Source: Candidatus Poseidoniales archaeon (lineage in GTDB: Archaea; Thermoplasmatota; Poseidoniia; Poseidoniales; Poseidoniaceae). From it: a stretch of DNA of 36,764 bases. The stretch lies in NCBI GenBank assembly GCA_003602575.1, contig QQRY01000057.1, forward strand, positions 1-36,764, in the 5' to 3' direction. The notes under the pieces are model-generated. The model made no database searches. It saw nothing but the letters and a program-made list of their open reading frames with translations, and was not told where the DNA came from. A program made the position numbers and the translations under genes. This document shows positions 31,577-36,764 of this stretch, one piece after another. The stretch's first letter is position 1. Each line of letters opens with the position of its first letter.

Positions 31577-32854
31577 ATGGAAGATTTTGATTTTCATCAG
31601 TATTATCAAAATAATGAAGTTGACATATCATGGCTTTCTAAGCCTAGTCAGCATGAATTTCGCTGGCGGTGCTCCGATGGCAGATGGAGAAAATCAAACC
31701 GTAGAGTAAGTTCAATTGAGACTTTTAGAAAAGCTATTTTTCAAGATAATCCTGCTGACATATATTTTTCTACATCTTCCTGGTTAAATCCAATTGATTT
31801 ACCAAGACTCAGTGATGAAACTAGACCGCATCCAATATTACTCAATCACTTGATTGTATTTGATATTGACTTTTCTCCGCTATCGTTTGAAAATTTAGAA
31901 AAAGCTAGAGAAACGACATTAAATCTACACAACTGGATTAAAGAAAACTATGATTATGAGTTATTATCAATCTCTTTTTCGGGTAGCAAAGGTTTCCATC
32001 TATTCTACAATGATTTAGATAGAACTTTATTTTCCATTGAAGATGCTAAAAAGAGAGAGAATGCCGTAAAAGAGGAACGCAATAAATTGCTTCAAGAAGT
32101 GTTATTGGCAGGATTCAAAGTAGACCCAAGAATTACTGCTGATACCCGTAGAATTATTCGCTTGCCTGGTAGTATTCATGGGAAAACCGGTCTATTATGC
32201 CACAGAATTGGCCTTGAGATGCTTGAGACTAATGTTGAATCATGGATAAATAAAGTTCCGAGTTACTATACAGATTTAGAAATTCCAAAGACCGCTAAAG
32301 TTCAAAATAAAAAAGAAGTGAAAAAATACATCCAGGATGAAAACAAAGAAACTACTGAATTTTCCTATTTGATGGAAGTTAGTAATCACTTACCTGGTAC
32401 CAAGGATAGAAGTGCACTAATCTTTTGGACACCTTATTCATGGGGAACGGGTGCTGAATGCTTTGAAAGATTAAACGCTTTAATCGAGATGGGAAATTTA
32501 TCCTATTGCGCTATTTTTTCAGATGGTGAAAGAATTCTTTTCATTTGCCCTGAATCTATCACTAGGGCAAAAGTGGTAAAAGTTCTAAACGATTTAGGTA
32601 TGGAAAAATTATCAGAGAACCTAAAACAGAGAGAGCATTATTGGGTTAGAATATCTGGTATAATGCGAGACGATGGCCTTTGGTACAATGAACCAAAGTT
32701 CATTTCAATTATTAAAAATAATAACTCAAAATCAACCTACTCAAAATCGCATTTGACATTACTAACCAAACTTGGCGTTGCTATTGATAAATCTCAACAT
32801 GAGAATATCTCAGGAAATAGTGAACCAAGCATTAGAATGGTTGTTCGAGACTGA
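31577..32854 (+). CDS. priS: DNA primase small (catalytic) subunit, archaeal/eukaryotic type
   Basis: A 425-residue protein that makes RNA/DNA primers for replication. Catalytic D96 and D98 lie in LIVFDIDFS, the nucleotide-binding SGSKGFH at 135-141, the third Asp (D189) in ADTRRIIRLPGSIHGKTGL. The usual zinc-knuckle cysteines of PriS are not apparent. Residues about 270-425 form a poorly conserved C-terminal region. It begins nine bases after the sucD stop with AGGTGAGAT as ribosome-binding site, so it is the third gene of the sucCD operon. The large subunit is not in the window. Confidence 0.9.
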   Translation: MEDFDFHQYYQNNEVDISWLSKPSQHEFRWRCSDGRWRKSNRRVSSIETFRKAIFQDNPADIYFSTSSWLNPIDLPRLSDETRPHPILLNHLIVFDIDFSPLSFENLEKARETTLNLHNWIKENYDYELLSISFSGSKGFHLFYNDLDRTLFSIEDAKKRENAVKEERNKLLQEVLLAGFKVDPRITADTRRIIRLPGSIHGKTGLLCHRIGLEMLETNVESWINKVPSYYTDLEIPKTAKVQNKKEVKKYIQDENKETTEFSYLMEVSNHLPGTKDRSALIFWTPYSWGTGAECFERLNALIEMGNLSYCAIFSDGERILFICPESITRAKVVKVLNDLGMEKLSENLKQREHYWVRISGIMRDDGLWYNEPKFISIIKNNNSKSTYSKSHLTLLTKLGVAIDKSQHENISGNSEPSIRMVVRD

Positions 32855-32856
32855 TA

Positions 32857-32863
32857 ATTTATA
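32857..32863 (+). promoter_or_regulatory. TATA box for the structured RNA / zinc-finger gene unit
   Basis: ATTTATA just after the priS stop. Its centre is about 27 bases before G32888, where the hairpin-rich element begins, the distance expected between an archaeal TATA box and transcription start. Confidence 0.5.
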
Positions 32864-32887: not shown

Positions 32888-32978
32888 GTCCCCAATGGAG
32901 TCTTAGGACTGTGACATTTCGCTACGCGAGACCGTAGAAACAATCGGCGACGGCGCTCGGGGACAGCGCCTAGCCACA
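32888..32978 (+). ncRNA. GC-rich multi-hairpin RNA element of unknown class
   Basis: By my count 53 of the 88 bases 32888-32975 are G or C in an otherwise AT-rich region. Three short perfect hairpins: AGTC-TTAG-GACT (32899-32910), CTACG-CGAGAC-CGTAG (32922-32937) and GGCGCT-CGGGGAC-AGCGCC (32952-32970), the last extended by GGC/GCC (32946-32948 with 32973-32975). The 5' end GTCCCC (32888-32893) is complementary to GGGGAC in the loop of the third hairpin, a potential pseudoknot. It ends 16 bases before the next start codon, so it may be a 5' leader (cis-regulator) or an independent small RNA. No tRNA, C/D or convincing H/ACA fold. Confidence 0.55.
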
Positions 32979-32991
32979 TCTTCGTGATAAT

Positions 32992-33636
32992 ATGGCTGAA
33001 AAAAACTACTTTTCTACTATCGTACTGGGCGTCATATTTGCAGGATTAGTTTTTATGTCATCTCAAGGCACTGAACACTCAGGAGGATGGCTTGTTTTAG
33101 CATCATTTTTTGGTTGTGGATTTATTGGACAAATACTTGTAGTCAATGGAATTATGCAAGTAACACCGGTTAATCAAGTACAAAGAATTACACAAGAAGA
33201 GTATCGTAGAAATTACCAAAACATCCCCTATAAATCGATAATTGCCAAAATAAACTCCAGCGGAGTAACTGTAACTACCGTTGAGGATGCAATAAAGACA
33301 TATTCTAGTTTGTTCAATGTCGGAGAAAAGGCGGCAAGGCCATTCTTCCAAAATCAGTTTGTTAAGTCAACACTGGGTTTGGATATCCAAAATTCTGTAC
33401 AAACCTCACAAGTTAGTTCAACTCGTAAAAATAAAACTAAAAAATTAGACTCTAACTTTTGGGATGATGTCTCAAAGGGAGTTACAAAAAATGAAGCTAA
33501 ATCTGAAGAGATTTGCGCTGATCCAAATTGTTCTAAATCTGTTTCTGCTTTTGATTTCCGTTGCTTTCAATGTCGTGGTAGATTTTGTGCAGATTGTGAA
33601 AGTGGCAAGAGTATAATGTGTAAAGCATGCTCATAG
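32992..33636 (+). CDS. Membrane-anchored treble-clef/RING-like zinc-finger protein
   Basis: A 214-residue protein with two N-terminal helices (about 7-23 and 32-54), a middle region (about 75-125, SIIAKINSSGVTVTTVEDAI), a Lys/Ser-rich linker, and an eight-cysteine C-terminal module: C175, C180, C191, C194, C199, C202, C210, C213 (spacing 4-10-2-4-2-7-2). This cross-brace pattern resembles AN1/RING-type double-zinc fingers; the family is not identified. ATG 32992 has GTGAT four bases upstream. The mRNA may carry the structured element at 32888. Its last six bases overlap the helicase 3' end. Confidence 0.65.
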   Translation: MAEKNYFSTIVLGVIFAGLVFMSSQGTEHSGGWLVLASFFGCGFIGQILVVNGIMQVTPVNQVQRITQEEYRRNYQNIPYKSIIAKINSSGVTVTTVEDAIKTYSSLFNVGEKAARPFFQNQFVKSTLGLDIQNSVQTSQVSSTRKNKTKKLDSNFWDDVSKGVTKNEAKSEEICADPNCSKSVSAFDFRCFQCRGRFCADCESGKSIMCKACS

Positions 33637-36414
33637 GAAAATTTCTTTCCTATGCAATGAGTTTTGAGGAACCATTGTTGAGGATTTGAGAATGTCAACT
33701 CTAATTTTACCTTCTTTGCTTCTCGCATAAAATAACTCAGATGGGCTAACAAACTCATTCCAGTAGCGTTGGAAAACTTCCGCTTTTTCAAGGGATGCTG
33801 CCAAAACCTTTGGCACTGTGTGATACATAACCAATCTATCTTGTACTGGCCTGAAGAATTTAGCAATTACTTCTGGCATAATTTTAGTTAGCCACGTATC
33901 AGTAATGAACTTAGATGATCTTGAAATTACATATCTTGGTTTTTGCATCGGTCCTAAAATTTCCTCCAAACAGGCAGAGAAGAGTGCGCTTTCTTCTTCT
34001 GTAGAATTCTCAAGATGTAAGCGCACCCAGCCACCTCCACGATTGCCACCATCAGCACGACAATTTCTTGATATCATTCCTAGATGAATCAAACTATTAA
34101 CTATTGAAAGTGAAATCGCTTGAACTAGAGATTCATCGGTCCACGGTGTTTTTTCCCTACCAAACGAAAAACCTCCACCAGAACCAGTACCTAATTTAGC
34201 TTCAATTGCAGAAGTTGGTTTTGCATTGAATGGCTGACCAATTCCCCAGAGCCCTCTTATGTGACTTCTATTACGACTACGTCTCAACATATCTTCATTG
34301 AAAACTGACATTCCTTCACTAACACCTTCTGGTTCTGCTTCTGTAAAGGCAGCGTGGACATGCCCGACACCTTTCTCAATCGCACCATCATCACATACTC
34401 CATACAACTGTTTATGCTTCTTCTTGAAGCGCTCATAATCTGAGAATCCATTGGTAAACTCTTCTGCAAGGCAGATGATATCCCAGTTATTCGCAACTTT
34501 TTCTGGCCATAATTTATCTAGTCTGATCGAACGACCCCTAAGTTGGTTGATACTCATACTTGTTGTCACAGTTGTCAGGTCTATCAATACATTAATTCTT
34601 GAGGCATCCCATCCTTCACCTAGTAACCCCCTTGTTCCAATTAGACACTTTGTAATACCTGATTGGAAAAACTCGGTTATCATTAGCGAATAATGTCTAG
34701 GAATCCAATCCTTACCCCTACCAATTATCTCATGATAGCCATTTCTCAATTCATCACTCAAGGTAATTTTTAGATTTCTTTGTTTAATCCAATCATTTGC
34801 CGCACTCAAAAATTCATCTGCCAAATCGTCATCAACAAGTACCGTACTACCAGTCATTAAGATCGGATTAAGCAATTCTACATTATCACATCCAACTGCC
34901 TGTCTAAAAGCAGCAACAGCTCCTCCCGCTTCATCATCCATTACACCTTCAACCAATGTAGTTGCTGAAGTTTTCTCAAAATCAGTGATGATTACTGCTC
35001 TAATATCTCCACCTAATGCTTGCATTTCTGAACTTAAAATTGTTGAAATCGCCTTACTTTTTGTGGATGCATAAGCCATAATCCGGCCTACTGGTGATGC
35101 ACAAGGTCGTATTCCAGTCTCAGTAATTTGGGTACCTAACATTCTCAATCTCTGAGTCACTAAATCTGCTTTTTCGTGATCTTTTTCACTCTCACTCCTG
35201 CGTAATCCATGCCTTACATATCGGTCGAGAACAGGCCTCAATATGGCCAATTTATTCTGATAAGAATCTAACAAGTGGCTCGGAGGATAAGGCACACCTT
35301 TTGGTATACTACCAAGCGTGTTTAACAAAAAAGCCCTCCCAGCGTTTGCAAATCCGCTATTTCTTTTACTAAACTGATCCCATTCTTCCCTTTTACCACC
35401 TGGTGATTTCCTTTCCTCTAGGGCTTTGAATACCCATTTGTCGATAGGTAATGTAGCATTTGGATAATCTTGATCCTGATGCAACTCATTGAGAAGTTCC
35501 TGGAATTCGTCGTCCACTTGAGCGACATAACTCAGCTCATTTTGTGATGGTCGGACAAAAAATGCTAAGTCTTGATATGGTGCTAAATTGGAATCTCTAA
35601 CTAGGGCTGGGACCGGAACTTCATAGTCAATCTCACCAAAAAATTCCTGATATCTTTTGGTATCTTCTTCATCATAATGTTGGAAATCTGGCGGGGTTGC
35701 CGTTAACCCAAGAACAATTGGATTACCAAAATACTCTCTAACTTCGGTTAGAACTCTCCCCCAATGATGAAGTAAGTGGTGGCATTCGTCAAGAATTATT
35801 AACCCAATACCAATCTCTTTCAATCCTTTAAGGTTATTTTTAGCAGTTTCACTCAAAGTCCATAAAGCATTTCCGTGCTTAGAAAATTCGTCCCTAACCT
35901 TTTTTCTATAGATAGAAAGTCTGTCTTCATAATAATCATTATTTCTTATTTTTAAGTCCTCTTGCCAAGCCAAAGCATTTTCCTCATCTATTGCTTCTCC
36001 ATTTGAGATCAAACTTTGTATCCAAAGTTCAATTGCTGCTTCGTTTAATTCTTCTCCACCTCTCTTAGGCATAGTTATTGATTGATATGTCAGAGAAGTT
36101 AGCAATCCAGGTTTTTTCGGGTCAGTACTAATGAATTCATCTTTACCATCTAAATCAAATAAATCGGTTCTTGCAGCCCATTGCGCCTGTATTGCTGAAT
36201 TAGGAGAAAGAACTAGAGTTGGTAGCCTTACTAAATCAGACCAAACATATAATCCTAGAACCGTTTTTCCTGAGCCTGGTGGAGCAACTATATGCAAATG
36301 CTTTCCATCTTTTTGAAGTTCTGGAGAAATTACTGAAACTGCTGCAACTTGAGATGGTCTAAGTTTACCATCGAATTTAATTGAACCAAATTCGGGTAAA
36401 ACTTTGTTGAACAT
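33631..36414 (-). CDS. Large superfamily 2 DEAD/DEAH-type helicase
   Basis: A 927-residue protein. Near the N-terminus it has a Q-like region LRPSQVAAVSVI, Walker A APPGSGKTVLGLYV, motif II LIILDECHHLLHHWG and motif III GLTATPP. The second RecA domain holds IITDFEKTS, the GLLGEGWDASRINVLIDL motif and motif VI NQLRGRSIRLDKLW. About 250 residues of unassigned C-terminus follow, with a Gly-rich turn (GTGSGGGFSFGREKTPW). Nucleic-acid remodelling in repair, restriction or RNA metabolism is possible; no narrower role can be read. ATG 36414 has AGTGAT three bases upstream and is preferred to TTG 36435, which overlaps the previous stop. Confidence 0.85.
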   Translation of the reverse strand: MFNKVLPEFGSIKFDGKLRPSQVAAVSVISPELQKDGKHLHIVAPPGSGKTVLGLYVWSDLVRLPTLVLSPNSAIQAQWAARTDLFDLDGKDEFISTDPKKPGLLTSLTYQSITMPKRGGEELNEAAIELWIQSLISNGEAIDEENALAWQEDLKIRNNDYYEDRLSIYRKKVRDEFSKHGNALWTLSETAKNNLKGLKEIGIGLIILDECHHLLHHWGRVLTEVREYFGNPIVLGLTATPPDFQHYDEEDTKRYQEFFGEIDYEVPVPALVRDSNLAPYQDLAFFVRPSQNELSYVAQVDDEFQELLNELHQDQDYPNATLPIDKWVFKALEERKSPGGKREEWDQFSKRNSGFANAGRAFLLNTLGSIPKGVPYPPSHLLDSYQNKLAILRPVLDRYVRHGLRRSESEKDHEKADLVTQRLRMLGTQITETGIRPCASPVGRIMAYASTKSKAISTILSSEMQALGGDIRAVIITDFEKTSATTLVEGVMDDEAGGAVAAFRQAVGCDNVELLNPILMTGSTVLVDDDLADEFLSAANDWIKQRNLKITLSDELRNGYHEIIGRGKDWIPRHYSLMITEFFQSGITKCLIGTRGLLGEGWDASRINVLIDLTTVTTSMSINQLRGRSIRLDKLWPEKVANNWDIICLAEEFTNGFSDYERFKKKHKQLYGVCDDGAIEKGVGHVHAAFTEAEPEGVSEGMSVFNEDMLRRSRNRSHIRGLWGIGQPFNAKPTSAIEAKLGTGSGGGFSFGREKTPWTDESLVQAISLSIVNSLIHLGMISRNCRADGGNRGGGWVRLHLENSTEEESALFSACLEEILGPMQKPRYVISRSSKFITDTWLTKIMPEVIAKFFRPVQDRLVMYHTVPKVLAASLEKAEVFQRYWNEFVSPSELFYARSKEGKIRVDILKSSTMVPQNSLHRKEIFL

Positions 36415-36431
36415 GAAATCACTAGGGGCAA

Positions 36432-36764
36432 TCAACGAGGAGGCCCTCTATTAGGTCCTTTTGGAGGGCCGCCTTTCTTGGGTCCTCCTGAAGGCCCGCC
36501 TCTTGGAGGTCCGCTTTTCTTAGGTCCTCCTGGTGGTCCACTTTTCTTAGGTCCTCCTGGCGGTCCGCTTTTCTTAGGTCCTCCTGGTGGCCCACTTCTA
36601 CTAGGTCCTCCTGGTGGCCCACTTCTACTTGGCCCTCCTGGTGGTCCTCTTTGAGGGCCTCTAGGTGGTCCTCTTGAAGGTCCTGGCGGACTTGACCTAC
36701 CAGGGCCTCTAGGTGGAGTTCTTCTAGGAGGAGCCTCTTCCTCTTCTTCATCTTCAAAGACTGC
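36432..36764 (-). CDS. C-terminal tail of a protein with Gly-Pro-rich nonapeptide repeats (5' end outside window)
   Basis: The open frame enters from the right edge and stops at TGA 36432-36434. The 110 visible residues start with an acidic run (EDEEEEE), then are almost wholly Pro, Gly, Arg, Lys and Ser. The register is a nine-residue unit, GPPGGPSRS twice then GPPGGPKKS three times, with looser copies on either side. Net charge is strongly positive. It is predicted disordered, perhaps nucleic-acid binding. It immediately precedes the helicase on the same strand, so both probably share an operon. The folded part of the protein is not visible. Confidence 0.75.
   Translation of the reverse strand, partial: AVFEDEEEEEAPPRRTPPRGPGRSSPPGPSRGPPRGPQRGPPGGPSRSGPPGGPSRSGPPGGPKKSGPPGGPKKSGPPGGPKKSGPPRGGPSGGPKKGGPPKGPNRGPPR
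36465..36670. repeat. Tandem 27-bp in-frame coding repeats
   Basis: On the plus strand the unit is close to GGTCCTCCTGGTGGTCCAC plus eight more bases, repeated in several near-identical copies. The period of 27 equals nine codons and third positions vary, showing selection on the encoded Gly-Pro repeat. Direct in-frame arrays of this sort expand and contract by slippage. Confidence 0.8.

Follow-up and report, generated by a model that had tools for sequence, protein, structure and literature searches.

A pseudoknotted RNA with a predicted kink-turn is associated with a variable primase cassette in Poseidoniales archaea

What is the GC-rich patch that separates a primase-like gene from a small zinc-finger gene in the genome of an uncultured marine archaeon, and which of its neighbors does it serve? 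The question is raised by contig QQRY01000057.1 of Candidatus Poseidoniales archaeon (assembly GCA_003602575.1), of which positions 1 to 36 764 were analyzed; this whole stretch of 36 764 nt is called the window. The patch has a GC content of 0.57–0.60 where the surroundings lie mostly between 0.25 and 0.45. An earlier note on this DNA had proposed a structured RNA with a pseudoknot between a loop and its own 5′ end, and had suggested that it could be a metal- or ligand-sensing leader or a new small RNA.

The element occupies 90 nt on the forward strand (32888..32977), with its start predicted at G32888. The first six nucleotides, GTCCCC (32888–32893), are complementary to GGGGAC (32959–32964) in the loop of the last of three hairpins that can be drawn, starting at 32895, 32918 and 32946. 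The TATA box of its predicted promoter, TTTATA (32858..32863, forward strand), is located 4 nt past the stop codon of the primase-like gene and 25–30 nt ahead of position 32888, and the ATG of the next gene follows at 32992. Taken singly, this sequence folds in an unremarkable way. It has a minimum free energy of −26.6 kcal/mol with z = −0.20, and 78 of 200 shuffled sequences fold equally well or better. The case for an RNA therefore rests on comparison. A mini-ORF within the element, ATG-GAG-TCT-TAG, was dropped because it is broken in a related locus (L015).

Searched at the DNA level, 194 relatives gave matches in 17, the genome of the window itself counted in; a 23-nt match in genome G001 (L017) was judged spurious. 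Fourteen of the matches formed alignment A3, from which we constructed a covariance model (R1) that identified the RNA in 65 of 170 genomes of the family at E ≤ 0.1. Model R2 matched 122 of 318 genomes of the order at E ≤ 0.01, in both families and in 13 of 22 genera. Matches in relatives span 88–106 nt, with about 4 flanking nucleotides counted in. There is a single R2 match per genome, except in G027 where matches are found on two contigs. The match in G263 (L140) is cut by a contig end, and a 27.5-bit match in G244 (L139) was judged spurious. An apparent second copy in G024 (L013/L018) proved to be a run of N in the scaffold that is flanked on either side by the start of the following gene. 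Scanning 339 genomes of the class yielded 120 matches at E ≤ 1e-4, and 59 were obtained at E ≤ 1e-5 in a sample of 389 genomes of the phylum. All matches listed fall within the two families of the order; outside it there was none, either in the phylum sample or in the ∼21 class genomes that are not of the order (339 less 318), an absence that is not proof because the filters were stricter and a like scan missed the RNA in G102, G094 and G076. Viral contigs contained no match to one RNA pattern and no relative of the primase-like protein.

The structure was analyzed in an alignment (A6) of 88 distinct copies from both families, picked for diversity from the available loci. It contains 27 base pairs with 92.9% of cells paired, and 22 of the 27 exhibit changes on both sides, in 502 cells. 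The covariation score is 0.512, compared with 0.159 ± 0.006 for shuffled alignments and at most 0.076 when the pairing partners are slid. Independent events were counted by parsimony on the tree of the adjacent primase-like protein, for which 84 of the 88 rows were usable. This gave 113 both-side changes from one canonical pair to another, against 0–8 when the partners were shifted by one, two or three columns, and 118 changes to or from non-canonical pairs, against 246–354 with slid partners. The second hairpin (P3) holds 52 of the 113 both-side events and 81 of the 118 non-canonical changes; since its register was set by the model, the stricter count is 61 events.

In the pseudoknot, the 5′ strand GUCCCC (P1, 32888..32893, forward strand) pairs with the 3′ strand GGGGAC (32959..32964, forward strand), and five of the six pairs change on both sides, with 16 independent compensatory events even though the pseudoknot was left out of all three covariance models. 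The forms found are GUCCCC/GGGGAC, GUCUCC/GGAGAC, GUUCCC/GGGAAC, GUUUCC/GGAAAC and GUCCUC/GAGGAC. The 3′ strand is contained within the loop of hairpin P4 (32946..32975, forward strand; GGC-GAC-GGCGCU/AGCGCC-UA-GCC), in which 9 of 12 pairs change on both sides across A6. As counter-evidence, the topmost P4 pair is unpaired in 55 of the 88 copies. The sequence of upper P4 varies by cassette type, being of GGCGC or GGGGC type. The strand order of P1 and P4 is that of an H-type pseudoknot, in which the 5′ end of the RNA pairs with the P4 loop. Between its strands it encloses the first hairpin, the hypervariable P3 (32918..32930, forward strand; UUCGC-UAC-GCGAG, with a model-dependent register) and a partly conserved joining region, J3/4 (32931..32945, forward strand), that the model leaves unpaired. 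Pairing of J3/4 with the Shine-Dalgarno-like sequence was inspected by eye, and no conservation was apparent. The GC-rich RNA with its loop-to-5′-end pseudoknot, as the earlier note had drawn it, is thus borne out by the covariation in A6, and the compensatory changes looked for in the stems and in GTCCCC/GGGGAC are found among the homologues. All three of its hairpins are present and covary, the first having a more specific identity than had been recognized.

That first hairpin (32895..32917, forward strand) is a kink-turn by sequence motif. Tandem sheared G•A/A•G pairs (GA/GA) are combined with a three-nucleotide bulge (UGU) that separates the C helix (GUC/GAC, closed by UUAG) from the NC helix (AUG/CAU). 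The GA/GA nucleotides, the uridine at L3 and the cytosine that follows are invariant in all 88 copies. The C stem is 100% paired, the inner NC pair is G-C in 64 of 88 and the outer NC position is paired in 85 of 88; within A6 there is covariation in both the C stem and the outer NC pair. According to the rule stated in the excerpt of PMC6298567, a Watson–Crick C:G pair at 3b:3n disfavors kinking in the absence of protein, while C:G at −1b:−1n favors it. By this rule the folding signals are mixed. There is C:G at 3b:3n in 64 of 88 copies, against protein-free kinking, and C:G at −1b:−1n in 85 of 88, in its favor. We infer that the kink-turn is bound by L7Ae.

The promoter signal also recurs. 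When 118 loci were aligned on the first G of the RNA, an A/T block appeared at −29..−23 and a purine-rich segment at −35..−31, with T preceding the first G in 72%. The TATA box assigned ahead of the RNA in the window has its counterpart in these loci, and the positions fit a transcription start at the first base of the pseudoknot. The RNA is probably transcribed from that G.

No Rfam family accounts for the element. A scan of the whole window against Rfam at the gathering threshold returned only two tRNAs. When matches at E up to 10 were allowed, the best for the element was 19.2 bits against a cut-off of 55, and the best for L015 was 18.3 against 45. RNase P RNA was rejected because a separate RF00373 match over the cut-off is found in eight of eight genomes. 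H/ACA guide RNAs have a conserved ACA 3′ of the hairpin; here the trinucleotide is ACA in the window, and ACC, AAA, ACT or yet another in the relatives, and this class was rejected too. The view that the RNA fits no class that can be named has therefore held up as far as Rfam is concerned. We consider it near certain that this is a genuine RNA and that it represents a new family. An unexplained structured RNA has also been reported from the same archaea, Tan1, an abundant 229-nt non-coding RNA of the MG-II archaea according to the available text of PMC5069720; compared by length only, it is more than twice the ∼90–100 nt of the present RNA.

What is the gene upstream? It lies at 31577..32854 on the forward strand, has a match to PF01896 and had been taken for the replicative priS. 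Against the NCBIfam PriS equivalog its score is 53.6 bits where the cut-off is 326, and of 15 genomes tested 13 have another PriS (48.7–62.4 bits), among them all seven that carry the cassette. A score below the cut-off together with a second PriS elsewhere in the genome indicates that this is not the replicative PriS. It is instead predicted to be a second, divergent archaeo-eukaryotic primase (AEP), a PriS paralogue that is missing from some relatives, and it is our proposed partner of the RNA.

The AEP assignment is based on motifs and fold. PF01896 was found in 33 of 33 members. The catalytic motifs of AEPs are hDhD, SxxxGxH and hD, and residues D96, D98, S135, H141, D183, R192 and R195 are invariant in all 33 aligned proteins. 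An AlphaFold model has a mean pLDDT of 89.4 and a pTM of 0.57. In the PDB it is matched best by chains of PriS (E 8.3e-11; TM-score, normalized by query length, 0.40), and it has an extra ordered C-terminal region outside these matches. The assembly that contains the window has yet a third PriS-like frame, a partial one (L202, G000:C45:3250-3489), which is perhaps a strain fragment. A weak PF01896 match in G117 (L209) sits among unrelated genes and was set aside.

How closely is the RNA linked to the AEP gene? In public sequences, taking the best 80 of 120 relatives, the RNA lies directly behind the AEP in 76 of 80 loci, two of the 76 being partial at contig ends. The remaining four (L216, L220, L226 and L288) are cut in the AEP or within 51 nt of it, so that all 76 testable loci of this set have the RNA after the AEP. 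Many of these are the same genomes as in the other scans, and the counts overlap. Among the 121 loci of the order-wide set, 116 have the AEP immediately 5′ of the RNA, its stop codon lying 28–74 nt before the element; of the other five, four are cut and one is the spurious L139. By hand count, the 318 genomes of the order comprise 137 with an AEP match, 122 with an RNA row and 118 with both.

The exceptions can be examined singly. Four genomes have an RNA row only, of which G087, G063 and G263 have cut loci and G244 has the spurious match. The 19 genomes with an AEP match only include G102, G094 and G076, where the RNA is present when filters are turned off, and 14 whose contigs break off within the AEP or shortly past it (13 by coordinates; in G095 546 nt are left). 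In G065 the AEP is a distant match with 30–32% identity. In G077 (L292, ∼1512–2250) the AEP is decayed to its N-terminal 145 residues followed by a small internal piece, and neither RNA nor partner gene was found beside it. With filters off there is no RNA at the AEP-less sites L181–L186 or beside the canonical PriS at L200, the best scores of 10.5 bits (L176) and 9.9 bits (L181) both being at chance level. Contigs that end in the AEP gene or the RNA make the cassette look rarer than it really is; MAG contigs of this kind are L016, L036, L140, L175, L223 and L282. The presence and absence of RNA and AEP together suggest that they form one working unit, and the comparison argues strongly that the RNA is tied to a variable AEP cassette.

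The cassette consists of the AEP, the RNA and a partner gene that varies, and in most cases a helicase gene in convergent orientation comes next. In the window the latter is a ResIII/DEAD-type gene (33631..36435, reverse strand, 934 aa) that overlaps the end of the partner gene by 6 nt. A helicase accompanies the cassette in 57 of the 64 loci that have enough sequence. The reverse strand at 36432–36764 encodes a protein rich in GPPGGP-type repeats that runs off the end of the window; in G001 and G049 (L184, L185) sucD is followed by a similar frame, also rich in repeats.

The cassette is found at several chromosomal sites, F04|F08, F06|F05, F22|F28 and elsewhere. Much of family 1 has it at the sucD–F08 site (with helicase) and part of family 2 at F06–F05, while F22–F28 is used by g20-type loci. 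Over 14 sucD-site loci the identity to the window is 37–82% for the AEP and 27–75% for the partner, against 81–98% for sucC/sucD. In the AEP tree genus g1 falls into several separate clades and g10 into two distant ones. Single odd placements possibly result from mis-binning; some carriers (AG-333-I22, AH-287-M04) have names that we take to be of the single-cell-genome kind. A Poseidoniales-type cassette was also seen in a record titled Deltaproteobacteria bacterium AH-558-G13 (L291), which is probably mixed or mislabelled.

Among 181 genomes of the order without an AEP match, eight sucD flanks were read. In G020 and G084 sucD adjoins the helicase directly, without a cassette, and in G001 and G049 sucD is followed directly by F08, with neither cassette nor helicase. 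G117 has a different sucD neighbor, and its genus carries the cassette elsewhere. The flanks in G017 and G060 are cut by contig ends. Contiguous empty sites have thus been read in four genomes only, and assembly gaps inflate the apparent absences. G023 is the remaining case. Its sucD is followed by a partner-type gene and the helicase, with AEP and RNA both missing; the gene (L183/L302) encodes 284 aa with 31–37% identity to other partners, aligning on both sides of their helical domain with the domain itself missing.

The partner gene is the basis of the main rival to an association with the AEP. In the window (32992..33636, forward strand) its product has two long N-terminal hydrophobic helices that we read as membrane segments, a helical domain at ∼68–128 and a C-terminal AN1-like zinc finger. 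The Pfam zf-AN1 match is below cut-off (14.3 against 27.9 bits) and the structure model is of low confidence (pLDDT 66.7). BLAST places the partners in separate clusters F01, F26 and F35, and in 72 of 81 loci one of these is among the three frames that follow. By eye the F26 and F35 types seem to share the small helical domain of F01. In the alignment the F01 proteins mostly add the N-terminal hydrophobic helices and the C-terminal AN1-like finger, with zf-AN1 under the Pfam cut-off in all five F01 proteins scanned, and the F26 and F35 types are short or have another cysteine-rich motif.

The RNA ends shortly before the start codon of this gene, at 32977 against an ATG at 32992, just as the earlier note had it. 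In both families the partner is the next gene on the same strand, and its start codon usually lies ∼9–18 nt past P4 and the end of the element, so that in most loci the RNA would also be the 5′ UTR of the partner. The RNA might then be a cis-acting leader that controls translation, either via L7Ae at the kink-turn or via the zinc finger of the partner in autoregulation. There is precedent in the parts available of PMC5539422 and PMC6298567, where archaeal L7Ae represses its own mRNA via a kink-turn in the leader, likewise near an archaeal start codon. For Pyrococcus, the excerpt of PMC3124441 describes kink-turn RNAs that stem from 5′ UTRs. Yet the L7Ae leaders are unstructured without protein in the available text of PMC5539422, while here there is a P4 stem of up to 12 pairs, and the kink-turn is one element within a larger RNA that has a pseudoknot and is linked to an AEP gene. 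Moreover, the Shine-Dalgarno-like sequence lies outside the structure in the one fold that was modelled, and the RNA occurs as a single copy per genome in one gene setting.

Two further observations speak against a leader. In one g1 subclade of 11 loci the gene start is 131–149 nt further on, with a second promoter-like block in between. In 10 of the 11 the best promoter-like match in the spacer is a variant of GCTGAAAGATTATGTGC, each being weak singly (p 0.037–0.39 per sequence), and the 20 nt 3′ of the element are T-rich (0.43 against 0.29 elsewhere). In G023, one genome, a partner-type gene has been kept without AEP and RNA, and this separates a leader of the partner gene from an RNA of the AEP. 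We therefore favor an AEP-associated RNA, given this case and the RNA following the AEP in the testable loci. A purely leader function is possible but somewhat doubtful. The RNA could also act as AEP cofactor and leader at once.

A second way to couple RNA and partner is that the pseudoknot RNA neutralizes the partner (or the AEP) in the manner of a type III toxin–antitoxin system. In such systems an RNA gene with tandem repeats precedes the gene of a ToxN-type nuclease toxin. The order of RNA then protein, the pseudoknot fold, the hydrophobic segments of the partner and the lack of the block in some relatives are all consistent with this, but there is one RNA match per locus without tandem repeats, besides three weak matches on the opposite strand. 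Nor was there a toxin-family or ToxN-type match, for six partners in Pfam and for the window partner in PADLOC and NCBIfam. G023 keeps a partner-type gene without the RNA that would restrain it, albeit minus the helical domain. We regard an antitoxin as improbable.

The least probable reading in our estimation, and a very unlikely one, is a small-molecule or metal riboswitch for the partner gene. A compact pseudoknot with a kink-turn does resemble known riboswitch scaffolds, and many partners have a zinc finger. However, the Rfam matches at E up to 10 are all at chance level, and the same cassette is found in all loci read, rather than one aptamer placed before several genes that serve a common pathway. 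The RNA is retained even where the partner, of the g10/g7 type, has no C-terminal AN1 finger. The metal- or ligand-sensing leader that had been suggested from the window is thus disfavored by the single cassette setting, as it is by the spacing in the g1 subclade and by the G023 partner without RNA.

If the RNA belongs with the AEP, how does the cassette compare with known systems? Like retrons and defence-associated reverse transcriptases (DRT) it combines a polymerase gene with an adjoining non-coding RNA that is structured and with a gene for a putative effector, and its distribution is patchy. Unlike them, the polymerase is an AEP primase, with PF01896 rather than a reverse transcriptase identified in 33 of 33, and no RNA layout of retron type was recognized in a cassette known from sequence alone. 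TOTE conflict systems combine an AEP with an SF2 helicase in a conflict setting and are not known to include an RNA; the cassette resembles them in its AEP and SF2-type helicase. No Pfam family named TOTE was among the matches of the 33 AEPs at E up to 1; the TOTE name appears for one viral match. PADLOC gave no match for AEP or partner, and a weak PbeA match for the helicase (7e-11). In Thermus, the available text of PMC7693054 describes a primase-polymerase beside a helicase in ICETh2 that lowers the uptake of foreign DNA. The cassette is like this element in having an AEP-family enzyme and a helicase in a variable element, the barrier role being that of the Thermus system, and unlike it in that this text describes no RNA or membrane partner, and in that the present AEP is PriS-like with a C-terminal region. 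The Thermus example makes a barrier role plausible here. Among the matches listed, the open-licence literature contained no primase-linked RNA of such kind, and no paper on TOTE. Both the RNA family and the cassette are thus not described in Rfam, PADLOC or the open-licence literature searched, among the matches listed.

Our main reading is that this is an AEP-associated non-coding RNA that acts as a ribonucleoprotein cofactor in a retron-like layout, to which we give a probability of about 0.45, a little short of even. The RNA would be held by the AEP, perhaps via the ordered C-terminal region, and might serve as scaffold, primer or template. A particle of AEP, RNA and L7Ae could then dock on the partner at its helical domain, and the output would come from the hydrophobic N-terminus or the zinc finger of the partner. 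By analogy with retrons and DRT, polymerase, RNA and effector would form a sensor that foreign DNA releases or activates, and the helicase would process the target. For most species the RNA would double as the 5′ UTR of the partner mRNA, and the two could be coupled in this way. By that analogy we tentatively entertain, as a rather unlikely extension, a primase–RNA immune (conflict) system of widespread surface-ocean archaea, in which a dedicated AEP polymerase would cooperate with its own kink-turn/pseudoknot RNA and signal via an exchangeable membrane or zinc-finger partner, with help from an SF2 helicase. Defence as the purpose of the cassette is similarly doubtful; its presence and absence could come from another accessory role, such as repair.

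At the least, both families of an order of widespread marine archaea share a new RNA family with strong support, which combines a covariation-confirmed pseudoknot with an L7Ae-type kink-turn. To our knowledge no other primase-type polymerase uses a dedicated non-coding RNA, and if the link to the AEP is true this would be the first. The logic of retrons and DRT, of polymerase, RNA and effector, would then extend to a second, unrelated polymerase superfamily, and the uncultured Poseidoniales would gain a testable conflict system.
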